This document shows positions 18,391-39,416 of a DNA stretch of 40,247 nt, piece after piece; within the stretch, counting starts at the first letter, position 1, and each line of letters begins with the position of its first letter. Origin of the DNA: a virus. The notes under the pieces are model-generated. The model searched no databases. It was given only the letters and a program-made list of their open reading frames with translations, and was not told the origin of the DNA. The translations under genes were made by a program, and so were the position numbers. The stretch is from positions 1 to 40,247 of the IMG/VR virus record IMGVR_UViG_3300025853_000224. One strand, 5' to 3'.

Positions 18391-19686
18391 CTAAGAGTAG
18401 TGCAGCTTGCCCAAGTTCGCAAGTTTTTTCTCGATTGATTCAATAACTTTTTCCTCAATGGAATCGCAGGCCACCAGAATCTTCTGCAATGCATCGCTTT
18501 TAGCGCCATTGCGGTGGATGCGGCCCAGCGCCTGCAGGTGGTCTTTCGCACTGAAAGAAGGTGATATCAGGCTGACACGGTTCCGTTTACCGTTTATGTC
18601 GTGCAGCGAGATACCGGTTCCGCCAGCTGCTATATTCACCACAAGAATGTGTTCTTTGTCCTCTTGAAAGGAATCAATGGCCTGCTGCCGTTCATCTGAA
18701 TCCTGATCGCCGTAGATGCCACCACATTTCAGCTCTTCACGTAGGGCCTCTAATGTGTCTCGAAAGTTGACAAAGATCACCACGCTCTTGTTCTGATCAA
18801 CCAGATCCTTTGCCATCTCTGCGATGTCCTTTACTTTGAAAGCTTCTGCGAGCTGTCGGGCGCGGAGCAGGTTGACAAGAACGTATTCACTGTCCTCAAC
18901 AGTCCCGTTCTCAATCAGGTCTTCCACAATAGCGGGCGTGATACCCAATTCGTCATAGGCTTTTACGATCTTCGCTCGATTGGAAAAATTGACGGGTTCA
19001 ACAATCACTCGATTTTCTTTGAAGGAATCCGGAAAGTCGGAGACGGTTAAGCGTTTGGCGACCACGCCATACATGTTCTTATGCAGGACACGTAGTTTGG
19101 ATGCGTTCTTTAGTTCCCACTGGTTCCACATGTTTTGGATGCAGCCATATTGTTTCATCCAACCATACCAATTCGGATACGGGGGTTTGGATGAGTTTAG
19201 ATTGTGCAAGCCCAGCGCGTAACCAATAGCCCGCATTTCAGTTGGGTCTTGTGACGCCGTTGCGGACATCATATGTACATTGAACTTTTGGGCAACAAGT
19301 GAGATAAGTAACTGAGCATTGATCGTATATGGCCCTTTGCATTTATGGCATTCGTCAATGAACACCATTGTGTGTTCAGGCAAATTCCACTTCATGGATT
19401 TCTTGCCTCTCTTCGACATATACGGAGTGTTACCAGTGCGGATCTTTTCGTAGTTCAAAACGAATACGGGCTCAATGCCAAACTCTGCCAGCTCGCGTTG
19501 CCATGATGGGATAACCGCTTTCGGGCACAGCACTGCCACCGGTCGCTCTAATGCGCGTGCGACATATGCCGCCACAATCGTCTTGCCAGTTCCGACATCG
19601 CTGGTGTCCAGCGTGTTTCGTCCGGTCGCGAGTGTGTTAATAAAAAAGGCGGCAGCTTCCTTCTGCTTCGGGTAAAGTGTTTTCAT
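18391..19686 (-). CDS. SNF2/DEAD-type superfamily 2 helicase
   Basis: A 431-residue protein with the superfamily 2 motifs: I SDVGTGKT (Lys35), II FIDECHK (Asp111-Glu112), III MSATAS, V VVNIAAGGTGISLHD and VI LQALGRIHRNG. The DECH box and the motif VI wording are of the SNF2/UvsW type. Such phage enzymes remodel replication forks, branch-migrate recombination intermediates or act on DNA-bound proteins. It lies between the RuvC-like resolvase and the DnaA-like protein, so fork repair or recombination-dependent replication is likely. The length is short, with no extra specificity domains. Confidence 0.85.
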   Translation of the reverse strand: MKTLYPKQKEAAAFFINTLATGRNTLDTSDVGTGKTIVAAYVARALERPVAVLCPKAVIPSWQRELAEFGIEPVFVLNYEKIRTGNTPYMSKRGKKSMKWNLPEHTMVFIDECHKCKGPYTINAQLLISLVAQKFNVHMMSATASQDPTEMRAIGYALGLHNLNSSKPPYPNWYGWMKQYGCIQNMWNQWELKNASKLRVLHKNMYGVVAKRLTVSDFPDSFKENRVIVEPVNFSNRAKIVKAYDELGITPAIVEDLIENGTVEDSEYVLVNLLRARQLAEAFKVKDIAEMAKDLVDQNKSVVIFVNFRDTLEALREELKCGGIYGDQDSDERQQAIDSFQEDKEHILVVNIAAGGTGISLHDINGKRNRVSLISPSFSAKDHLQALGRIHRNGAKSDALQKILVACDSIEEKVIESIEKKLANLGKLHYS

Positions 19687-24174: not shown

Positions 24175-24189
24175 TTTGACTATGTCAAA
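24175..24189. promoter_or_regulatory. Palindrome at the divergent terminase start
   Basis: TTTGAC-TAT-GTCAAA, two perfect 6-bp arms around 3 bases, overlaps the start codon of the large terminase and lies just upstream of the divergent HTH gene. It is placed like an operator for the HTH protein, but a 12-bp match of this kind can occur by chance. Confidence 0.3.
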
Positions 24190-26875
24190 CGAAGCTGAAA
24201 AACGCAAGACTCAACTGGAGCCTCAGATTCATCCGGTTACGAAAATGATGGACGTTGGGGGTTTAACCATTCCGCCTACAAGTATGCTAACGGCGTTGCT
24301 ATATGGTTTTGCGCACCACCCTAAAGTGTATGCTCGTGAGTTTTACTTTTGGAGATTGTGCGACGAACTCTGGAACCATCCGGATTTGCCGGAGCCAATG
24401 ATGGTTCGGCATCCGTGGGCCACGCAAATGATTCGGGAAGCATTGGAGAACAAGTATTTTGCGGTTGGTGGTTCCGCTTCGTCTGGCAAGTGTTTGGCAC
24501 CCGATACGTTGGTCCGGATGGCCTACGGTGGTTCGCACAGAGCGGACGCGATTAAAGTAGGGGACAGGCTCATCGGCGACGACGGCAAATACCGGACAGT
24601 CACGGGCGTCAACAGAGGCCGGTCAAACATGGTCCGGATTGTGCCCACAGTGGGCGAGAATTGGTGCTGCAACGATGATCATATTTTGACGGTCTTTCAT
24701 AATGGGAAAAAGGAAACGTTTGACATCAGCGTTAAGGATTATTTGTCAAAAGGTCAACACACAAGAGAAAAACTCAAACTGATAAAAGGAGTCGCGCCGA
24801 TGTTCCGGAACAACGTGCCATTGAGCGCACGTGTTTATGGTTATTGGATCGGGATGTATGCCTATCATAACAAAAGTTCCGAAATTATAAAAAACATGAG
24901 CGCCGACGAAGAAGCGCGTTTGTTTCTCGATACCTTTAAGTCGGAAGGAATCGAAGTCAAACCAAATCAGGTAAAAAAATTAGCCCGCCTCATCAAAGAG
25001 GGGCGTGAGGAAGGTCCAAAACGGATTGACCACCGATATTTATGGAATGATGAAACCCGACGTTTGGAGCTTCTAAGCGGTATCGTTGAGGCAAACGGCG
25101 AGCATGGTGTAAGAGAAAATTCAAGAGTCCTGAAATTTGAGCACGAGCAAACCAGAGATGACGTCAAAGAGCTTGCCGATTCATTGGGCTTTTTTTGCTG
25201 CAAGAACAATGAAGCCTCTGACCCGCGCAGGCCATATGGTGTGAGCATTAGGTGCCGTAGGACCAAAAAAGGAGTCGAACGAAGCATGACCCATACAGGC
25301 TTCAAAGTAGAGGAGATCGGCGAAGGCGACTGGGCTGGTTTTGCGGTAGATGGCAACCACCGGTTCCTGTTGGCAGATGGCACGATTACCCACAATAGCC
25401 ACACGATGGCCGCTTACGGCATTTTGAGCTGGTTGAGTCAGCCAGCCGACACGATGGTCCTGATGACCAGCACGACGCTACGAGAAGCCCGCAAACGTAT
25501 TTGGGGCAGCGTCATGTCTTTGCTGTCCGTCATTGATGGTGCACCAATCAAGATTCGGGATTCAATTGGTAATGCATCCTACGTGAATGCAAAAGGAACG
25601 CTCATCGAGCGAGCTGGTCTTTCGTTGATTGCAGCGGAGAAGAGTAAGACGAAGGATGCAATCGGTAAGTTTATCGGTCTGAAGCAGAAGCGGGTCATCC
25701 TGATCGGTGATGAGCTTTCGGAGCTGTCGGAAGCGATCCTGCAGGCTGGTCTGTCGAACCTTTCGAAGAACCCGTTCTTCCAGATGATTGGTATGAGCAA
25801 CCCGAACAGCCGCTTTGATGCCTTTGGCGTTTGGTCTGAACCGAAAGGCGGTTGGGATTCAGTGGACACGCAAAATGCGGATGGTTGGGATACGAAATGG
25901 GGTGGCCGGTATTTGCGGTTGGATGGTGAGAAGTCCCCTAACATTATCTTAGGCGAGAACAAGTATCCGTGGCTTCCGACGCAAGAAAAGCTGGACGAAG
26001 ACCGGAGCCTGTTGGGGCCAGAATCAAGGGGATACATGCGAATGGTGCGTGCGGTCTTCTTCGACAGCGACGAAACGACCGGAATTTATAACGAATCGGA
26101 ACTCGCTCAAAGTGGGGCCATGAGCACGGTTGGCTGGTCCGGTAAACCAGTCACGGTTGTCGGGATTGATCCGGCTTTCACGAATGGTGGTGACCGGACC
26201 ATCATGTCGGTGGCGGATGTGGGCTACGCGACAAACGGCCAGTATGTAATCCAGTTCAAAGAGTGCATCCACCTGAACGACGATGCAAGCAACAAAGCGG
26301 TGCCAAGAACATATCAGATTGTTCACCAGATCATTGATAACTGTAAGCGGTTGGGTATCGCGCCACACAATGTGGCGATTGACAGCACCGGTGCGGGTGC
26401 GCCCTTCTGCGACGTTCTGGCGGGCGAGTGGGACCCATCATTCTTGAGAGTCGTCTTTAACGGCAAAGCGTCTGACAAGCGGGTCTCCTCCAATAGCCGC
26501 ATGACTGGAGAGCAACTATACGTCAACCGTGTTAGCGAAATGTGGTTCGTCGGTAAGGAGCTGCTACGAACCGGACAGATTAAAGGCGTGCAGTCAGATC
26601 TTGCGCAAGAGATGTGTGCCCGTAACTACGAGATGGTCAAAACAGGATCACTGAAGGTCAAGATCGAATCGAAAATGGACTTCAAGTCTCGCTTCGGTAG
26701 GTCACCGGATTTGGCTGATGCGGCCTTTCTGGCGCTTGACTGTGCCCGCCAGCGGTTAGGTCTTGTCTCTATTGACCCACCGAAAGACGAAATGGTGAAC
26801 GGGGTCATCCGCCCACGAGTCACGATAAATAGTTTGCGAAACGCCTTACATAATCCGGATACGTCTTTGGTTTAG
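24182..26875 (+). CDS. terL: Large terminase subunit interrupted by an intein
   Basis: The ATG at 24182 is preferred to a TTG six bases upstream. The precursor is 897 residues; after splicing it would be 595, a normal size for a terminase. The packaging ATPase has Walker A GSASSGK/SH, split by the intein between Lys and Ser, Walker B RVILIGDELSE (Asp510, Glu511) and the coupling motif MIGMSNPN. The C-terminal RNase H-type nuclease shows GIDPAFTNGGD (Asp663), VAIDSTGAG (Asp734) and SPDLADAAF (Asp846), three acidic metal ligands. The enzyme pumps DNA into proheads and cuts concatemers. Without splicing the P-loop cannot form. It diverges from the small-subunit candidate and is followed by the repeat-rich non-coding region. 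Confidence 0.92.
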   Translation: MSNEAEKRKTQLEPQIHPVTKMMDVGGLTIPPTSMLTALLYGFAHHPKVYAREFYFWRLCDELWNHPDLPEPMMVRHPWATQMIREALENKYFAVGGSASSGKCLAPDTLVRMAYGGSHRADAIKVGDRLIGDDGKYRTVTGVNRGRSNMVRIVPTVGENWCCNDDHILTVFHNGKKETFDISVKDYLSKGQHTREKLKLIKGVAPMFRNNVPLSARVYGYWIGMYAYHNKSSEIIKNMSADEEARLFLDTFKSEGIEVKPNQVKKLARLIKEGREEGPKRIDHRYLWNDETRRLELLSGIVEANGEHGVRENSRVLKFEHEQTRDDVKELADSLGFFCCKNNEASDPRRPYGVSIRCRRTKKGVERSMTHTGFKVEEIGEGDWAGFAVDGNHRFLLADGTITHNSHTMAAYGILSWLSQPADTMVLMTSTTLREARKRIWGSVMSLLSVIDGAPIKIRDSIGNASYVNAKGTLIERAGLSLIAAEKSKTKDAIGKFIGLKQKRVILIGDELSELSEAILQAGLSNLSKNPFFQMIGMSNPNSRFDAFGVWSEPKGGWDSVDTQNADGWDTKWGGRYLRLDGEKSPNIILGENKYPWLPTQEKLDEDRSLLGPESRGYMRMVRAVFFDSDETTGIYNESELAQSGAMSTVGWSGKPVTVVGIDPAFTNGGDRTIMSVADVGYATNGQYVIQFKECIHLNDDASNKAVPRTYQIVHQIIDNCKRLGIAPHNVAIDSTGAGAPFCDVLAGEWDPSFLRVVFNGKASDKRVSSNSRMTGEQLYVNRVSEMWFVGKELLRTGQIKGVQSDLAQEMCARNYEMVKTGSLKVKIESKMDFKSRFGRSPDLADAAFLALDCARQRLGLVSIDPPKDEMVNGVIRPRVTINSLRNALHNPDTSLV
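24491..25396 (+). mobile_element. Intein in the terminase P-loop (302 residues), endonuclease core degenerate
   Basis: It begins at Cys104 (CLAPDTLVRM, splicing block A) and ends THN before Ser406, so Cys1, the final His-Asn and the Ser+1 nucleophile are all present. Block B is WCCNDDHILTV, with the His but Asn in place of the usual Thr. Block F is GFAVDGNHRFLLADGTITHN. The central part looks like a LAGLIDADG homing endonuclease whose two motifs are degraded: YGYWIGMYAYHN where WLGDG is expected, and LLSGIVEANG where LIDTDG is expected. Both catalytic Asp positions are lost. It therefore probably still splices but can no longer home. Confidence 0.88.
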
Positions 26876-29642: not shown

Positions 29643-32600
29643 ATGTTAGAAATTCTCCCAATCGACGACTGGGCACAGGTCAACGAGATTACGGACACCG
29701 CTCAAAAATTCAAGAAATACAACACCTACGTTAAAGCGCAGGTGTTGAACTCTGATGTGTCCGATGAAGAGCGCAACAGTGTATTCGCCCGCATCAACCA
29801 ACGGACGGAAGAAGGCATGCGGAGCGCCGGATTAGCTGAAGATGAAGTCAAGCAGGCTTTCTCACCTAAACCTTTTGGGTTTAACCGTAAGCTTGAAATC
29901 GTCCACCGTGCGCTGGACGCTGTAGACGATCCGGTTGCCGCGCAGTCAATTCGTGACTATTACGCTTCTTCGAAACTGCTGAAGGCAGACCCGAATCAAG
30001 CGGAATCTTTCAAAGCGTTGGTGGCCGACCGGAAGAAGCTGGCCGAGCAGTATGTTGACCAGTATTATTCAGAAGCAGCGCAGAAGTTGGTGACACAAGA
30101 GGATGTCCCATTCACCCGTGTGGAGTTGCCAGATGGACAGATTTCACTGGTCGCGGGACCTGCTGCCGTTGGTCTTTCTGCTAAAGACGCCTACCGTAAA
30201 TCACTGGCCGCTGGCACCATTCGGGACGAAGACATTGAGGGCATCATCAACTCGATGGCCAAAGACGAAAACGGATACGAACAGTTCCGGCACCGTAACT
30301 TTGAGGAAGCGAACCTGTTTGTTAGCAAAGCTTCCAAAGAAAACAAAAACATCCAAGCGCAGATCGCGCTAGCAGCCAACGAAATTGCGGAAGATGGCGC
30401 TCTGTCTGACAGGACCGTCACCGGATTCAAGGCTTTGATGATTGGGCATGACCCTAATTTCTCCCGCCAATATGATGACGCTGACATCAAAGCAGCACTC
30501 GAATACACAGCAGGCTCACGGGCAATGGTGTCTGGGACCGCTGAGTATGACGAAGAAAACGAAGAGAACAACATCCGAAAGTTCGGCTATGGCTACCATG
30601 CGCTGCACCGCGATACGATCCTGAACAATGAGAAGTTCGAAGCCGCGACGAAGAACATGTCGGAGCGGGACAAGAAAATCGTCGGCAACCAGAGGGCGCT
30701 ATTGCGTGAAGCACAGTTCGACCAGTTCAATAATTCGTTGAGCCGGTCTTATCTGGGTGAAGAGTGGCAGTCATTCCTGCAAAAAGGTCTCTCTGAGGGC
30801 AAAGAAAAGGCCGACATTCTTGATGAGTTCACGTCTAGCGAGGCTTACAGTGGGGCCGCGAACATTGCGCAGCACATCGGCCTTTCCATTGGCGAAGCCG
30901 TCACAGATATCGGTTGGGGTGTTGGCGCGATCTTAGGCAGCGAGGGGGCTCGTGAGCAGCTTTTGGAAAATTACAAAGACCGGCAGGCACGCGCTGAAGT
31001 CGCAAAATTGTTCGGTCAGGACTTTGGAATGGGCGTTGAGCTTTCTTCAATGGTCGCGCCGGTCCTTACCGATGTAGCCACTACAATGGGCCTTACGGCT
31101 ATTACAGGAGGCGCAGGTGCTGGTCTGGTGGTTGGTGGTAAAGTGCTTAAGAAAGGCATAGCAAAGCAGATGCAGCGGTCTGTCCTCAAAGAAGCGGTTG
31201 ACCAGACGGACAACGCGGCTATTAAAACCGCCATTAACGCAACTGGTTCGGGCGCACGAAACACCGCTGTTCCGGCCATGCGCGGCTTCGCGTCATACTA
31301 TAATGGTATTGTGGGCCATAAAGCGACACAACTTTCTTCGCTCTTTGTGCCAGCCGCTACCCGCAGTGGTTCGATGACTTATGCTGCGGTCTACGACGCG
31401 CTTGAGCGCACACCGGAGGGCAAGAATCTCACACCGGAAGAGAGGCACGACAAAGCATTGGCCGCTGGCGCTACAGCTGGAATGATCACCGGCATCATCA
31501 CCACTTCATTTTCGTTGGGTGGTCGTGGTGGTCTCGAAGATTTCATCTTGCGTCGGGCAACAGGAAGAGATGTCGAGAAAGTATTCAATACGATCAGTCG
31601 CGGCGTTACAGGCCGTGAGTTGTCGCAAGGCAGTCTGCAGGCAGTTCTGAAGGACGTTCTTGCAAAAGGTCATAAATCGTTCTCACGCCGTGCAGCAGGC
31701 AAGCAAATCATCAAAGGTTTCACTGATGAGGCTCTGGAAGAAGGTCTTGACGAATACCTGAACACGATTGTTCAAGCGGTGTTCACTAATAAAGATTTAC
31801 CGTTTGAGGAAGTCGCCCGTTCTGCTTACATGGGCGCTCTATATGGTGGTATCTTCGGTGCCGCTGTTGGACCCGTCCGGAAAGGATTCCAGACGCTCAA
31901 CGAAGTTCTCACGCCTATTGACCCGCTCACGGAGCAGCAGAAAGAGGGCGAGGTCATCCGGAACATTGCGCTTGCTTCCGCCAACCGAGTCATTCGTGAC
32001 AAATCGAATAAGCTGAAACGCAACAACGCACCACAAGCCGCAGCAGCTTTTGAAGAGGAAATCCGAAAGGTAATGGCCAATCAGGCGGCAGTTGACGAAA
32101 CAGAGGCCATTGCATCCGAAACAGAGCAGCCGGTCTTGACTACGCCAATGACGGACTCTGACCTCTCCGATGAGATGGCCGATGAGTTTGACGCCGCGCA
32201 GCTTGAGATCGAGAAGATGGAGGAGCCTCCTTCGCTTGAGGAAGCTGTTAAACAGGACACAGAGGCAGAAGCTACTGAACAGCCAGTTGAACAGCCAGTT
32301 GAACAGCCAGTTGAACAGCCAGTTGAACAACCAGTTGAACAACCGGTCGAACAACCGGTCGAACAGCCAGTTGAACAGCCAGTTGAACAGCCAGTTAAAC
32401 AACCAGTTGAACAACCGGTCGAACAACCGGTCGAACAGCCAGTTGAACAACCGGTCGAACAGCCAGTTGAAGAGGACGCGGAAGAACCAATTTCCGATGA
32501 TTTAGCTGCTGAGTTAACAGAAGAATCAGCCGAAGGGCTGGACTTAGATAAGGTCCCCGAAAAAAATATCAAAGAAGCTGTCGAAGAAGTCGAAGCCGCG

Positions 32601-35600
32601 AAGCCAGAAACTGAAAAGGTTGCGGACGTTCCAGTCGAGAGTGATAATGACCTGAAGGCTAAAGCCGAAGAGCGCATCACTGAGTTGGCCGAATCCGGCA
32701 TCCCGCTTACTTTATCTTCCGGAGCTTACGGCCTGCCTAAATTGGGTGGGGGCAGCACCGATTTCTGGAAGGCCAAAACAAAACAGTTGGCCGATGACAT
32801 CAACAAAGCGAAGGCGGATAAAACCAGCCCGCACTTCGTGACTACTGGTGATGCGCTATATGGTGTCTACGGCGTGCAGCCCGAAGAGGTCAACACGCTC
32901 GTTAAACCAAAGAACTCTTTCGGCGAACTGCAGACCACGTCTGATGGTGGGGTCCTGTTTAACAACGATCCGGTTGTCGTTGACCATGCGCTGAGTAAGA
33001 TGAAGCGGCCTTACGTCGTGATTCCGAAAGAATGGAATGGCCCCATTTCGCCAGCATTTGATACAGTGTCGATGAAAGACGGGACTTACCGTATCGTCGC
33101 AGTCAAGAAGCCATCCCGCTACCCGAAAGCAGAGCAGACTGGTGAGGTGGAGGCCCCCGAAACGGGTATTAAGAATGCCGCCAAGAAGGTAGAACTGGCT
33201 GGTGCGGTTGATATTAGCCAAGAAGCGGACTTTTATCAGGCTGGTTTGTTCCGAGATGGTGATCCAGACAAGACTTATATTCTTGATGGCACCATGAAAG
33301 TGTCGGAAGCGCTCGCCAACTTTAATGGGTGGGTCTCTGCGAACAGCCGAAACATTGAGTCCGTTACAGGTGTTGGTAAAAAGTTTAGCTCTTTCATTGA
33401 CTGGAGCAAAGTAAAAGGAGTTAAGGACAAAGAGCAATTCATTACGGATGTGATGTATGAGTTCATCATTGATACTCATGCCGTCATCGCCACTGCCCCG
33501 CTGCAGAAAATCGTTGAGCCCTATATTGTGGATGGCAAGATCCCTGATAGCATGGTTGATGATATTATCGAGGGGATGATTTCTGAAGAAGGCATCAAGA
33601 GAGGGTCATTCTACATGCGGTTCATTCAAAAAAGTCTCGACAGCCTCAATGAAGAAGGCGGTCTGCAGATTGGGCGGACGACCTACGAAGGCGCGAACAT
33701 AACGAAGAACGCAGAAACGGATTCGCAAAAGATCGCGGCCTTCCTTTACCACCTTCTGTCTGGCCGAACCTCCATAACAGGCTCTTCTGATATCTTTAGC
33801 CAGAAGCAGATGGTCGCTGACGGTATCATTACAGACGCTAAGAAGTCAAGAAATCGGTCTTCGCTGAAGAAAGGGTGGGACCGCAAGATTATCAAGAAAG
33901 CTCTTGAAGAGATCTACGACCATCCGGAGTTCTCTAAGCAGGGGGGCAGGCCCTTCCCAGACTTCCCAAACATCATTCCGAAAGCATCTACCCGCGTTCA
34001 GCAGCGCCTCCGTTCCAGTGAGCAGCTGAAAGAGGACCGGCAGATGTCTTCGATTAATGATCTTAGCAACAAGCAGCAGCAACAGATTGGGCAGGACGAC
34101 GATTCAGTCGATCAGAATGTTAATGCTGCTTTCGACTTTGAGGGTGAGCAACAAGACACTGGACAAGTTGATCTTTCGGACAAGGGACCGAAAGCCCGAT
34201 ACACTGAAATCTTAAATAACATGACGAACAAAGTGACGGGTCATCTCGCCACTTTGAGCGAACCGAAGAGGGTAGAAGCGGACGAAGCGCTCTTCGATTT
34301 CGCAGGCGCTGTGTTTGGTGACACCGGTCAGGGTTTGAAAGACTCCGGTGAATATGGAACTGACAATATCCGCAAACTCATTTCTGATGTCCTACACCGT
34401 GTTCAAGTCCGAAAGCCATCACCAGCGCTGCAGAGCTATTTCGAAGCGGTCTATGACAAACTACCAGACCCATTCCGCCGTTCGCTGGCGTTGATGGGTC
34501 TTGATGTGCCGCAGACGTTGACCACTGAACAAGCACAAGACCTGTTCCTTAAGCGTGTCCATATATCTGAACAATATGAGAACAGAGCACTGAACGAATC
34601 CGCTGATGTTGTAGAGAACCGCAGCATTAACAATGAAGCGATTGCCCGATTAGGTCTGGTGGATGGTGATTCGTCGTCTGTCCTCACCGCTCTCCGACGC
34701 ATCTCAGCAGATGAATCCCACAAAGCGGTGGCGAAGCTTTTGTTGCGTGAAGCCAACAGGTTTAACAATGTTGACTTCCGTATCGAAGACAACCCACAAA
34801 GCGGTTACGCTGGTTTATTCGAAGCTAATGAAGATGGTTCACGGTCGGTCACAATTAACATCGCTGGTTTTTATGGCAAAGGGATCGAGTCTGTATTGCT
34901 ACACGAATATCTGCATGCCGCCACTTTTGACCTTCTTCGCTCGCCCGATCTTAGCAGTAAACAAGCGGCGGCGTTGACACGTTTGAAGAACCTCCGGTCT
35001 GAAGTGGAGAAGGTCTACAAAGCTTCTGGCAACACTTCTTCAACAATTGACTACGCACTTTCGAACACTGATGAGTTTGTCGCGATGCTGTTCACTTCGC
35101 CGGTGTTTCAGGAAAACGTTCGCTCACTTCCACAGAAAGGTTTCGTTCGCCGTATTATCGACGCAATCAAATCTCTTTTTGGCATCCAGCCGAAGTCTGC
35201 GATGTCCCGCGCTTTTGATGATCTGACGGACTTCCTCAATATGGACCGTTCACCGGAACCTGCTGGCATTGAGACACTGGATCAAGCCGCGCTTTTCGGG
35301 AAGTCAACGTCCGACATGCGCTCGCAGTTGATAGTTGATAGTAAAAAACAAGAGCTGGAAGACCAAATATCACAAGCTCGCGAGGGGAGATATTCCAGCA
35401 TTGATGACATTGAGGCAGACGAAGACTTCACGGTTGAGCAGCAGGTCGCTGTAGATGAACTCATTGACGAGACCATTAAATCTGTTGTGCCTGCCGATGT
35501 TCCGGTATTCGAATCTACGGACGCCAAAGCAGAGATATTTAAGTCTCGGCCAGACTCGCTGTTCGCGGCTCGCCTAATGCGCGTGAATGGCCGTTTGGTT

Positions 35601-38600
35601 TCGTCCATTATCCTGAACAGGCCAGCAGCTCAAAAGGCACTCACAGAGGCACACGGCGTCATTACGAATGAGCAGCATGTTAGACAGATGTTGGAGTCTA
35701 TTTTAAATGAGGAGATCTTCCACGCAGCAGAACTCCGGTCCATCCCCAAAGCGGAGCTTGATAAGCTGGCTGACGAACTGTCATCCTACGATTTAGAACA
35801 GGCCATCGACCACTACACCAAAGATTCCGAACTCGCTAACCGCCTGAAGGCTTCTGTCCAGAACGGCGACAGAGTCGTCATGAGACAGGTTGTTGGGGAA
35901 CTACTTCGGATGAAGGCGCAGCAGCTTACCAGAGGTTACACTACGGAAGAGGATCGCGCATTCTACTTCTCAAATCCTAAGTTCCATCAGGTTATGTTCC
36001 GGTTCCTGATGGGTGTGTTTCGCCGCATGGCTGCCGCATACAATCTCAAGAAACAGAATGCAGAGATGGCGCGGATGGTCAACAAACTTTCGACCGAAGT
36101 CCGCCTGCTCCGTAGTGGTGTCCTCCGCATTAACCAGCGGATGCAGTTTGATGCGCTTGCCCCTAACAGCGTGGAGACGGAACTTGAAGAGCGCTTCTCC
36201 GCCACGATGGAGAAAGGCAAGCTGATTGAGTTCGGGCCGGATACCACTTTCGAAGAAGTCTCGCGGCGTCTACCAATGTTCGAGGAATACGAACTGGCGC
36301 TAGGTGCATTCAAAAAAGGTGAATACAAACAGAACAAATGGTTGGGCCGAATCCTGAATGGTAACCTTGACCCGCGAGTGTTAGAGGTCTTTAAGCAGGC
36401 TGAAGCTGTGAAGACCGCGATTCCAGACAGAGCCCGATCCATCGCTGATGAAATCCGCAAAATGGTGGAAGCTGATCCGGAACTCGATCATATTCTGTTG
36501 GGTGACTTCTTAGGCCGTCCGAACGACACGGAGGTGCCCACGAAGTTTATTGAATATCGCAAGAAAGTCTTTGACACACGATATAAGCGGGTGTCACGTG
36601 AGAAAGGCGGCGTTACTCCGTCAGAGCGCGAACTGATCTACGCAGAGGAGGTAGAGGAGAAAGTCAAGATTGAGCACGCCCGCCTCGTCTCTGAAGCGAA
36701 GAAGCGCAAAGAGGCCGCCCGTAAAAAACTACTCGCGACACACCCTGAACTTTATAGTAAGTTGTCAGAACTTCGGATGATTCTTGACGGGCTGTCCATC
36801 ACGATGGCTGAAAAGTTCGACCACTCTGGTGAGCTTCGCGCAGTGATCGACGAGAATCTGGGCATCTACGTTACCAGATCATACAAAGCTTTCATCGAAG
36901 AAGGCTACATGGACAAGCTGATTTCTGTGATCGAAGGCCGTAAGGAAGGCAGCGATGAAGTTATGCTTAAGAGGTATGAGAAAGTTTACGAGATATTCGA
37001 GCAGACTTACCACGAGAAGTGGGCGATGAACCAGCAAAAAGTAGAGCGAGATAACAATGTTCCTGAAGATCAACGCACGAGCTATGACGAGCTTATCAAA
37101 ACTTCAAAATACAGTTTGAAGTTGGCTATAGAGGAGAGGGCCGACCCAATCAGAGGAGCAATTCTTGATTACCTCTACTCGCTGGACTCACATTCTCAAA
37201 TCCGGAAAGGCCGACCAATGGCCCGATCTGTAGCGAAATCTGTCGTTGACCAGATTCGTCAACGTAAGGTTGTCCCTCAACCAATTCGCGAACTGTTAGG
37301 CCAGTATGACGACGCTGACGTTCTCGATAACATCCTCCGCTCCGTCACGGTGGTCTCTCGTGCGGCGAGCCGTGAGTCATTCATTCAGAACCTGATTCAG
37401 TTGGGCCAACGTTCCGGATTTGTTTACTCTCTGAAGGAAGTGCAGAAGATGCAAAAAAATGGTGACCAGCGTTACCACAGTCTTGTTAACCTCCGCAACG
37501 GTGCGACCGTCAGCGACGACGAGATTCAGAATGAGGTGTTATCAGATAAAGTGGAGAACGACTACACGAAGAGTCTTTATTTTTACATCGACAAAGACGC
37601 GCACGAAGCTCTGCAGAAGCACATGACCCACCAGACACCGGCTGACCTCTCGTTCGAGCGTCAATGGGTTGAGAACGTGGTGTCTTATTATCGGATGGGT
37701 ATTGGCCTGTCTCTGGGCGCAAAGACATTAGGCTCGTTAGGCTTCTACCTTCGTAACGTCTTCGGTAACTTAGGTTTCTTCGGGCCTATGCAGGGCGTTA
37801 TGCCGCACAAGCTGGTCAAGCACTGGAGCCGCGTCATTACCGCGCTCAAAACGCCAAAAGAAGTGGACGAATATGCCGCTGAACTGATGGCGTATAATGT
37901 CATACAAGGTGACATCAGAGCGCGATTCACTCAAGAGCTGCTTCAAGGCAGAGTAACTCTGCAGACGCTTAGAGAGGACATTGAGGACACTTCAACCAAG
38001 ATTCGTAAGCTTAAGAGTAACGCCAAGAAAGCAGGCAAGACCGTTAAAGAAAAGACGAAGCCACTGACCGACCGCCTGCTTGCGCTATCTAATGCAGTGG
38101 ATACCTTCTACAAGATTGCTTACTTTGAACACGAGCTGGACGTCCTCAAGAAAGCCAGAGCACACGATATCAGTATGGGCATTCCAGCAGGAAGTGGCTA
38201 CCGGCTTAGTGACCACGAGCTAAAAAAGATGGCTGCTGTAACTGTCCGTAACACATCGCAGTCCTACGTCGATGCATACGAGACGGTTAAATACATGACC
38301 AGCAAGTATTCGTTCCTACTGCCTCCATTTATCCGCTTCCGGTTTGACGTTCTTCGAATCCTGTTCGATGGAACGCCAAAGCAGATTCGATCTGAGATCG
38401 ACAGCGATAACCCGATTATTAAAAAGCGCGGCTACTCCCGTTTGTTTGGGTTCACCAGCATTGTTGGCGGATTCAGTATTGCCGCACCACTTGCTCTTCG
38501 AGCGATCTTTGGAATCTCCGACGAAGAGGATGAACTGAACCGTGAGGCTCTTCCGGACTATGCCCGTAACAACACGCTGTTCTACATGGGCGACCACTTT

Positions 38601-39416
38601 TGGAACTTCACGTTTATGAATCCAGTATCTGGTGGTGGCGCGGATGCAGCACTTCGGATGGTGGAAGATACCATGAGGGGGAAACCGTCTGAGGGTTTCA
38701 TGAGGGCAATCAAGATGATGGCTTCCGAATACGCAGGCGAACAAATCTTGAATCAGGCTGTTGCCGATGTGGCCTCTAATCAGGACTCCAGAACGGGTGA
38801 CCCGATCTACGAAGAACACGATGGTGTTAGCGCCATCTACAAAGTCTTCAACTATATCTGGAAAGAAGCCTACGAGCCCCGAAGCCTCACGGCTACGAAA
38901 CGAATCATAAACGCTGCTATCGGTGACGAAGCTCTGGATGAAAATAGAACGGTGTCATCATTGTTGCTGAACGAGATCAAGCCAACACGTTCAAAAGAGT
39001 TTGATGTGAAACGGGCTTTCCAGCAAGTGCTCTCAAAGAAGAGGGACGAACGGAACCGCTTGAGCAGTAAGATCAACCGTCTCAAGTCACGCGGGGCTTT
39101 GACGGACGGGGACATTGAGACGATGGCCCGCGAGTTTATTGAAGATCGCAAGCGGATTGATCAGGACATTTCACGATATGTGAAAGCAGCCATGTCTCGT
39201 GGCATGAGTTTTCAACAGGTTCGTAACAGCATGAAGTATTACCGCATGTCAAATGACCGTATTGAGGACATTGTCAAAGGGCGTTTCAAGAAACCTGAAG
39301 TGTCAGCTACAATGAAAAAGGATCTGCAGGAGATGGGTAGCGTTGGTGTTGAGCGGCTTAATAAGTTGAACAGCATTATGGCTGAGTATAATGTCTACAC
39401 TCCGCTCCACGAATAG
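29643..39416 (+). CDS. Giant multidomain virion/ejection protein (3257 residues) with metalloprotease motif
   Basis: About a quarter of the window. Residues 1-420 are helical. Residues about 460-760 contain Gly/Ala-rich hydrophobic stretches (VAPVLTDVATTMGLTAITG, AYMGALYGGIFGAAVGPV) that could enter membranes. Residues 880-943 are a VEQP repeat. A HEYLH zinc-protease motif (His1754, Glu1755, His1758) lies in ESVLLHEYLHAATFD. A second site, EEIFHAAE (2023-2030), looks like a degraded copy. Long helical and mixed regions follow, and a hydrophobic segment FTSIVGGFSIAAPLALRAIFG lies near residue 2940. Such proteins belong to the large polyvalent proteins of phages, carried in the virion and injected with the DNA. 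It has no close domain I can name beyond that. Likely roles are membrane passage of DNA and protection or host attack on entry. Confidence 0.75.
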   Translation: MLEILPIDDWAQVNEITDTAQKFKKYNTYVKAQVLNSDVSDEERNSVFARINQRTEEGMRSAGLAEDEVKQAFSPKPFGFNRKLEIVHRALDAVDDPVAAQSIRDYYASSKLLKADPNQAESFKALVADRKKLAEQYVDQYYSEAAQKLVTQEDVPFTRVELPDGQISLVAGPAAVGLSAKDAYRKSLAAGTIRDEDIEGIINSMAKDENGYEQFRHRNFEEANLFVSKASKENKNIQAQIALAANEIAEDGALSDRTVTGFKALMIGHDPNFSRQYDDADIKAALEYTAGSRAMVSGTAEYDEENEENNIRKFGYGYHALHRDTILNNEKFEAATKNMSERDKKIVGNQRALLREAQFDQFNNSLSRSYLGEEWQSFLQKGLSEGKEKADILDEFTSSEAYSGAANIAQHIGLSIGEAVTDIGWGVGAILGSEGAREQLLENYKDRQARAEVAKLFGQDFGMGVELSSMVAPVLTDVATTMGLTAITGGAGAGLVVGGKVLKKGIAKQMQRSVLKEAVDQTDNAAIKTAINATGSGARNTAVPAMRGFASYYNGIVGHKATQLSSLFVPAATRSGSMTYAAVYDALERTPEGKNLTPEERHDKALAAGATAGMITGIITTSFSLGGRGGLEDFILRRATGRDVEKVFNTISRGVTGRELSQGSLQAVLKDVLAKGHKSFSRRAAGKQIIKGFTDEALEEGLDEYLNTIVQAVFTNKDLPFEEVARSAYMGALYGGIFGAAVGPVRKGFQTLNEVLTPIDPLTEQQKEGEVIRNIALASANRVIRDKSNKLKRNNAPQAAAAFEEEIRKVMANQAAVDETEAIASETEQPVLTTPMTDSDLSDEMADEFDAAQLEIEKMEEPPSLEEAVKQDTEAEATEQPVEQPVEQPVEQPVEQPVEQPVEQPVEQPVEQPVEQPVKQPVEQPVEQPVEQPVEQPVEQPVEEDAEEPISDDLAAELTEESAEGLDLDKVPEKNIKEAVEEVEAAKPETEKVADVPVESDNDLKAKAEERITELAESGIPLTLSSGAYGLPKLGGGSTDFWKAKTKQLADDINKAKADKTSPHFVTTGDALYGVYGVQPEEVNTLVKPKNSFGELQTTSDGGVLFNNDPVVVDHALSKMKRPYVVIPKEWNGPISPAFDTVSMKDGTYRIVAVKKPSRYPKAEQTGEVEAPETGIKNAAKKVELAGAVDISQEADFYQAGLFRDGDPDKTYILDGTMKVSEALANFNGWVSANSRNIESVTGVGKKFSSFIDWSKVKGVKDKEQFITDVMYEFIIDTHAVIATAPLQKIVEPYIVDGKIPDSMVDDIIEGMISEEGIKRGSFYMRFIQKSLDSLNEEGGLQIGRTTYEGANITKNAETDSQKIAAFLYHLLSGRTSITGSSDIFSQKQMVADGIITDAKKSRNRSSLKKGWDRKIIKKALEEIYDHPEFSKQGGRPFPDFPNIIPKASTRVQQRLRSSEQLKEDRQMSSINDLSNKQQQQIGQDDDSVDQNVNAAFDFEGEQQDTGQVDLSDKGPKARYTEILNNMTNKVTGHLATLSEPKRVEADEALFDFAGAVFGDTGQGLKDSGEYGTDNIRKLISDVLHRVQVRKPSPALQSYFEAVYDKLPDPFRRSLALMGLDVPQTLTTEQAQDLFLKRVHISEQYENRALNESADVVENRSINNEAIARLGLVDGDSSSVLTALRRISADESHKAVAKLLLREANRFNNVDFRIEDNPQSGYAGLFEANEDGSRSVTINIAGFYGKGIESVLLHEYLHAATFDLLRSPDLSSKQAAALTRLKNLRSEVEKVYKASGNTSSTIDYALSNTDEFVAMLFTSPVFQENVRSLPQKGFVRRIIDAIKSLFGIQPKSAMSRAFDDLTDFLNMDRSPEPAGIETLDQAALFGKSTSDMRSQLIVDSKKQELEDQISQAREGRYSSIDDIEADEDFTVEQQVAVDELIDETIKSVVPADVPVFESTDAKAEIFKSRPDSLFAARLMRVNGRLVSSIILNRPAAQKALTEAHGVITNEQHVRQMLESILNEEIFHAAELRSIPKAELDKLADELSSYDLEQAIDHYTKDSELANRLKASVQNGDRVVMRQVVGELLRMKAQQLTRGYTTEEDRAFYFSNPKFHQVMFRFLMGVFRRMAAAYNLKKQNAEMARMVNKLSTEVRLLRSGVLRINQRMQFDALAPNSVETELEERFSATMEKGKLIEFGPDTTFEEVSRRLPMFEEYELALGAFKKGEYKQNKWLGRILNGNLDPRVLEVFKQAEAVKTAIPDRARSIADEIRKMVEADPELDHILLGDFLGRPNDTEVPTKFIEYRKKVFDTRYKRVSREKGGVTPSERELIYAEEVEEKVKIEHARLVSEAKKRKEAARKKLLATHPELYSKLSELRMILDGLSITMAEKFDHSGELRAVIDENLGIYVTRSYKAFIEEGYMDKLISVIEGRKEGSDEVMLKRYEKVYEIFEQTYHEKWAMNQQKVERDNNVPEDQRTSYDELIKTSKYSLKLAIEERADPIRGAILDYLYSLDSHSQIRKGRPMARSVAKSVVDQIRQRKVVPQPIRELLGQYDDADVLDNILRSVTVVSRAASRESFIQNLIQLGQRSGFVYSLKEVQKMQKNGDQRYHSLVNLRNGATVSDDEIQNEVLSDKVENDYTKSLYFYIDKDAHEALQKHMTHQTPADLSFERQWVENVVSYYRMGIGLSLGAKTLGSLGFYLRNVFGNLGFFGPMQGVMPHKLVKHWSRVITALKTPKEVDEYAAELMAYNVIQGDIRARFTQELLQGRVTLQTLREDIEDTSTKIRKLKSNAKKAGKTVKEKTKPLTDRLLALSNAVDTFYKIAYFEHELDVLKKARAHDISMGIPAGSGYRLSDHELKKMAAVTVRNTSQSYVDAYETVKYMTSKYSFLLPPFIRFRFDVLRILFDGTPKQIRSEIDSDNPIIKKRGYSRLFGFTSIVGGFSIAAPLALRAIFGISDEEDELNREALPDYARNNTLFYMGDHFWNFTFMNPVSGGGADAALRMVEDTMRGKPSEGFMRAIKMMASEYAGEQILNQAVADVASNQDSRTGDPIYEEHDGVSAIYKVFNYIWKEAYEPRSLTATKRIINAAIGDEALDENRTVSSLLLNEIKPTRSKEFDVKRAFQQVLSKKRDERNRLSSKINRLKSRGALTDGDIETMAREFIEDRKRIDQDISRYVKAAMSRGMSFQQVRNSMKYYRMSNDRIEDIVKGRFKKPEVSATMKKDLQEMGSVGVERLNKLNSIMAEYNVYTPLHE
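32280..32471 (+). repeat. Sixteen tandem 12-bp units coding for VEQP
   Basis: Consensus CARCCRGTYGAA, 192 bases, in frame in the giant gene (residues 880-943). Three unit types occur (A cagccagttgaa, B caaccagttgaa, C caaccggtcgaa). Units 2-7 and 8-13 share the order AAABCC apart from one G-to-A change, so a 72-bp block was duplicated after the basic array formed. Confidence 0.9.

Follow-up and report, generated by a model that had tools for sequence, protein, structure and literature searches.

A predicted splicing-competent intein with a decayed homing endonuclease in the Walker A loop of a marine phage terminase

Inteins are well known from P-loop sites, and so are inteins whose nucleases are dead. 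The published homing cycle runs from invasion through fixation to degeneration of the nuclease, followed by deletion or loss (PMC8966425). The PhoVMA intein lacks both active-site Asp residues of its partly truncated nuclease but has kept its splicing domain, and grafting active-site residues onto it restored cutting (PMC8966425). In mycobacteriophages, the TerL1-a intein lies between Lys and Thr of the terminase large subunit (TerL), and five other TerL inteins from the same study spliced in a reporter, with two TerL inteins able to cut (PMC5050341). PI-SceI (Sce VMA) carries an embedded, active LAGLIDADG nuclease with both catalytic Asp and an extra DNA-recognition region, and phage helicases of the Salmonella Jersey-like, Klebsiella and Vibrio groups hold P-loop inteins, many at GK/T, which nearly always keep their nuclease motifs (an exception is that of St162, L089, without the motif 2 Asp).

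Here we describe a TerL intein that cleanly exemplifies a recognised decay stage. It is like PhoVMA in having lost both nuclease Asp and part of the nuclease with the splicing domain retained; however, the host of PhoVMA is an archaeal V-ATPase and the fold match is weaker (7qst, 8.7e-9). It resembles TerL1-a by position, with insertion between Lys and Ser instead of Lys and Thr. With PI-SceI it shares the block B Asn and the embedded LAGLIDADG nuclease, whereas PI-SceI has no phage P-loop Lys/Ser insertion. The phage helicase inteins differ in host and are related over the full length at 27-30% identity.

The window, by which we mean the whole stretch of DNA analysed, comprises positions 1-40,247 of IMGVR_UViG_3300025853_000224, from a marine phage, and the features of the locus are listed in Table 1. 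The TerL precursor matches the PHROG terminase large subunit (8.8e-10), as does the C-extein by itself (2.5e-10). The insertion is 906 nt long (302 in-frame codons) with no stop or frameshift, starts with CLAPDT and ends with TITHN followed by Ser. Within the Walker A motif of TerL it falls exactly between Lys and Ser (GGSASSGK/SHT), and when it is excised in silico the flanks join as GGSASSGKSHT to give a predicted TerL of 595 residues. As in class 1 inteins, the insertion is in frame, and taking it out gives back a conserved host protein, here one seen intein-free in 79 contigs. Because those relatives carry the motif uninterrupted, the boundaries of the predicted intein are exactly placed and the insertion is genuine, bearing out the earlier note, which had placed an intein in the terminase P-loop at Lys/Ser. 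Because the insertion separates the Walker A Lys from Ser, normal ATP binding is not expected of the precursor before splicing, given the role of the P-loop, and we can soundly infer that packaging depends on splicing of the predicted precursor. Downstream, a 3257-aa ORF (window 29643-39416) occupies a quarter of the window and contains PT disordered repeats (PF04886 near residues 876-910); the part scanned gave no other notable family match.

Table 1. Coordinates of the TerL intein and its parts in the window
Feature	Position	Strand	Basis
TerL precursor gene	24182..26875	+	ORF and translation; 897 aa from ATG at 24182, plus stop; 595 aa after predicted splicing
Walker A N-terminal part, GGSASSGK	24467..24490	+	sequence; GGSASSGKSHT contiguous in intein-free relatives
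Intein, 302 aa	24491..25396	+	Hom_end_hint E=7.6e-14; PI-SceI 8.3e-8 (sequence), 7.4e-20 (fold); absent from 79 related TerL contigs
Cys1, first splicing nucleophile (block A)	24491..24493	+	Cys in 129/130 relatives, Ser in 1
Block B Asn61-Asp-Asp-His64	24671..24682	+	Asn61 in 128/130 relatives, His64 in 130/130
Degenerate LAGLIDADG motif 1 helix	24827..24859	+	catalytic position Met122 (24854-24856); alignments; predicted helix 113-123
Remnant of first endonuclease half, shortened	24860..25030	+	AlphaFold2: no beta strands, pLDDT about 61-77 over most
Degenerate LAGLIDADG motif 2 helix LLSGIVEAN	25052..25096	+	catalytic position Asn202 (25094-25096); predicted helix 188-202
His301-Asn302, block G, C-terminal splicing residues	25391..25396	+	invariant in alignments A1 and A2
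Ser+1 (second nucleophile) and resumed Walker A, SHT	25397..25405	+	sequence; +1 nearly always Ser or Thr in relatives

Scanning IMG/VR with the C-extein of the window TerL yielded 80 loci. The site is empty in 79 of these, with GGSASSGKSHT uninterrupted, although one of the 79 (L043) begins inside the motif. The 79 intein-free TerLs are 74-86% identical to that of the window. The sole other carrier, IMGVR_UViG_3300007344_006928, is the same virus (99.98% identical over 9 kb), with two SNPs that both lie outside the intein; when partners for a dN/dS estimate were sought, this one further copy proved identical over the intein. The comparison of close relatives with and without the insertion that the earlier note had proposed thus gives 79 empty sites and one filled contig of the same virus, so that a single virus population among about 80 TerLs carries the intein. 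We found no isolate phages with the window TerL C-extein. The flanks show no clear recombination or co-conversion tract; a slight dip in identity beside the insertion for L004 was inconsistent in others.

The intein scores 52.7 bits against Pfam Hom_end_hint (PF05203; curated cut-off 32.1), and PI-SceI is its best solved relative both by sequence and by the fold of an AlphaFold2 model (TM 0.70). Relatives were found in 247 isolate-phage records; most align over their full length at 25-30% identity, and helicases are frequent hosts. Viral and bacterial contigs yield many more, with some bacterial host loci looking like DnaB as judged by the flanks. Because nearly all members are inserted directly after the Walker A Lys, ahead of Ser or Thr, they are, judged by alignment, a broad family of putative PI-SceI-like P-loop inteins in phages and bacteria. 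The window intein shows both the full-length homology and the insertion directly behind the Walker A Lys. The phage's own DEAD-type helicase (window 18391-19686, minus strand) is intein-free, though helicases are the commonest hosts of the family in isolate phages.

The nearest inteins are those of unclassified viral contigs from IMG/VR (L101-L108). They lie at the homologous Lys/Ser or Lys/Thr site of genes with C-exteins orthologous to that of the window TerL (identity 47% for L107 and 39% for L101), and share with the window intein a CLAP start, a VTHN-type end and 51-59% identity in the splicing parts. They differ in having both catalytic Asp and a full nuclease, and in their length of 340-345 aa compared to 302. 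Occurrence of the intein in the TerL group of L107 is sporadic, with 4 carriers among 19 loci in which the site can be seen. Phylogenetically, the window intein belongs to a 15-row clade that also holds L101-L108, L112, L117, L124, L130 and L134 (support 100/99). Its exact place is uncertain: its end branch measures 1.77, and it is paired with L109, whose branch is also long, possibly by long-branch attraction. L112, from the same clade, is 244 residues long and lacks most of the nuclease. Both L112 and L117 have exteins of terminase-like appearance, to which no library gave a family name.

Several family members are found in other settings. L109 (L109:2030-4096) lies in a phage portal protein after a Gly-Lys that is not part of a P-loop (DNAGK/T), and crAss-like phage cr118_1 (L093:1501-2562) has an intein in its portal protein after EGGK and before Ser, the latter suggesting jumps to GK sites outside ATPases. 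The annotated large terminases of Vibrio phage pYD38-A (L092:1501-2589) and Klebsiella virus KpV2811 (L094:1501-2589) have inteins at another P-loop position (FGGRG/SGKT), and their motif 2 reads LLDTDS, not LLDTDG. A Ruegeria phage tape-measure protein (L095:1501-1794 and on) contains a short family intein of about 139 aa in which the nuclease is absent. A viral contig and a Candidatus Nitrosotalea genome-bin contig share an identical intein sequence (L133:2501-3493 and L187:2501-3493), which may reflect the same virus or a matter of binning. One member (L150:1494-2528) starts with Ser and not Cys (SISPD).

All residues expected of a class 1 intein are present in the window intein: Cys1, the block B His64, His301-Asn302 and Ser+1. 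The AlphaFold2 model places the splicing domain in a Hint fold with pLDDT >90, and the PI-SceI, Prp8 and gp41-1 inteins match it by fold. The earlier note had described the splicing residues as intact, and this holds for each of Cys1, Asn61, His64, His301, Asn302 and Ser+1. It had also regarded the block B Asn as unusual; on the contrary, Asn is the family norm and PI-SceI has CNATH there, and we rejected this residue as a splicing defect because it is shared by nearly all relatives (Table 1). A redox switch through private cysteines was likewise discarded, as Cys60 is common to 65/130 relatives and only Cys59 is private; we observed no redox feature in the sequence that is distinctive to this intein. 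From these residues, the intein is predicted to be splicing-competent.

In contrast, the eighth-position acid of an active LAGLIDADG nuclease is missing from both motifs. At motif 1, 126 of the 130 relatives have the Asp and the window intein has Met122; at motif 2, 123 of the 130 have it and the window intein has Asn202, in a helix (LLSGIVEAN) that aligns with LAGLIDSDG of PI-SceI. Relatives with both Asp read GxWLGDG and LAG[LI][LI]D[SA]DG. In a wider set, 185 of 200 distinct relatives retain both. This set includes loci recovered by splicing-domain patterns alone, and the motif pattern for the viral and bacterial contig search admitted Asn, both of which limit, without abolishing, the bias to intact nucleases. 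The earlier note's claim that both catalytic Asp are lost therefore stands, although for motif 1 it had singled out the Asn of YHN, where the alignment gives Met122 (WIGMY against WLGDG). That note had also allowed for acids at shifted positions. Residues 117 to 129, around motif 1, include no Asp or Glu. In the vicinity of motif 2, Glu200 is the sixth LAGLIDADG position, not the catalytic eighth, and Glu204 is two residues beyond it.

Loss of the two acids is accompanied by asymmetric erosion of the intein. Against L101-L108, the N-terminal splicing part is 53-58% identical and the C-terminal part 51-59%, but the nuclease only 24-29%; L105, just as distant from the others in its N-terminal splicing part (54-59%), still has 48-55% identity in the nuclease. 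For one nuclease comparison the Fisher p was 3.7e-7 and for the splicing part 1.0, values that are guides only, as sites are not independent. The window intein retains 0.53 of the conserved nuclease positions compared to a family mean of 0.875 (s.d. 0.082), and its splicing parts are near the mean. At the same alignment depth, AlphaFold2 gives the intact relative L103 three canonical strands (pLDDT 87-97) in the region of the shortened remnant, where the window model has none, so that the two beta-sheet DNA-binding halves of such nucleases are not both predicted here. Of the profiles that the earlier note had suggested comparing, Hom_end_hint matches (Table 1), while the separate endonuclease model Hom_end gives 14.2 bits and is under its cut-off of 21.1. 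The apparent erosion is well beyond two substitutions and is not a matter of two chance changes. Together, the missing Asp, the eroded nuclease and the first-half strands lost in the model uphold the earlier suggestion of a dead homing endonuclease, a predicted inactivity that is well supported.

We conclude that this is very probably a splicing-competent PI-SceI-like P-loop intein at the TerL Lys/Ser site, at the point of the homing cycle where the nuclease degenerates. A TerL P-loop would have been invaded by an ancestor whose LAGLIDADG endonuclease was active, and this nuclease would then have lost both catalytic Asp and part of the DNA-binding framework through substitutions and in-frame deletions, with the splicing domain staying intact throughout. 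In the proposed splicing reaction, Cys1 would attack the Lys-Cys bond, transfer to Ser+1 would follow, and cyclisation of Asn302 would leave Lys and Ser joined. The nuclease would decay because there is no selection for cutting, and the splicing domain would remain intact because TerL would need the intein excised in order to bind ATP. As the nuclease is embedded in an essential reading frame, the only changes to survive would be substitutions and deletions that keep the frame, which matches what is seen. The intein fits a stage between its intact relatives and L112. The earlier note had argued that an intein with a dead nuclease must be useful or newly fixed; this does not follow, and no adaptive explanation is required, because the homing cycle predicts such decay (PMC8966425) and other family members have decayed too.

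Different explanations for the state of this intein can be considered. An endonuclease still active through acids at other positions is extremely unlikely: Glu200 and Glu204 do flank the motif 2 catalytic position and one Asp is missing in a few relatives too, but the lack of acids around motif 1, the absence of first-half strands in the model and the low Hom_end score all oppose it. It is also very unlikely that the intein was kept after losing homing as a packaging switch, in which slow or conditional splicing of Walker A delays active TerL until late infection. The intein does interrupt an essential ATP-binding loop, passages in the literature document conditional splicing for other inteins such as those of mycobacterial DnaB (PMC6195587) and RadA (PMC5790916), and a regulatory role for TerL inteins has been proposed (PMC5050341). 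However, the analysis turned up no sign of such a switch here; 79 of 79 other related TerLs dispense with the intein, block B is standard for the family, there is no distinctive redox feature among the cysteines, and the five mycobacteriophage TerL inteins spliced readily in the reporter, the precursor being plainly visible for one only (PMC5050341). Unlikely as well, though less so, is that the nuclease without cutting became a structural support needed by the splicing domain, in a mutualism of both domains. Such dependence is described for other inteins (PMC8966425), and some 150 in-frame residues of the nuclease remain, much of the second half being predicted to fold; against this, the first half is strandless and of low confidence in the prediction, the remnant is poorly conserved, and L112 indicates that the family tolerates deletion of most of the nuclease.

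An alternative that concerns timing only, and is compatible with the homing-cycle explanation, is that the intein was already decayed on entry, arriving by ordinary recombination or by trans cutting from the nuclease of another P-loop intein. We regard this as possible, if doubtful. It agrees with carriage by a single sampled lineage, with the common occurrence of active P-loop inteins in phages, and with erosion far above that expected for decay begun after the split from L004 (86% identity in the TerL C-extein); entry after that split would mean either very fast erosion of the nuclease or decay before arrival. Still, no donor with the same decayed nuclease was found, and the flanks are without a clear recombination tract. 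The order of fixation and then decay was not seen, as no sampled clade of related phages has the intein fixed. Repeated loss of the intein in other lineages is possible.

The window intein alone demonstrates no new function. Nevertheless, as a degenerating member of its clade, it completes a series among the inteins of one TerL clade that runs from intact (L101-L108), through point-mutated and shortened (the window), to a largely deleted nuclease (L112). Together with the many TerL alleles that lack an insert, this is a fair natural series for the time that inteins with dead nucleases persist in phages.
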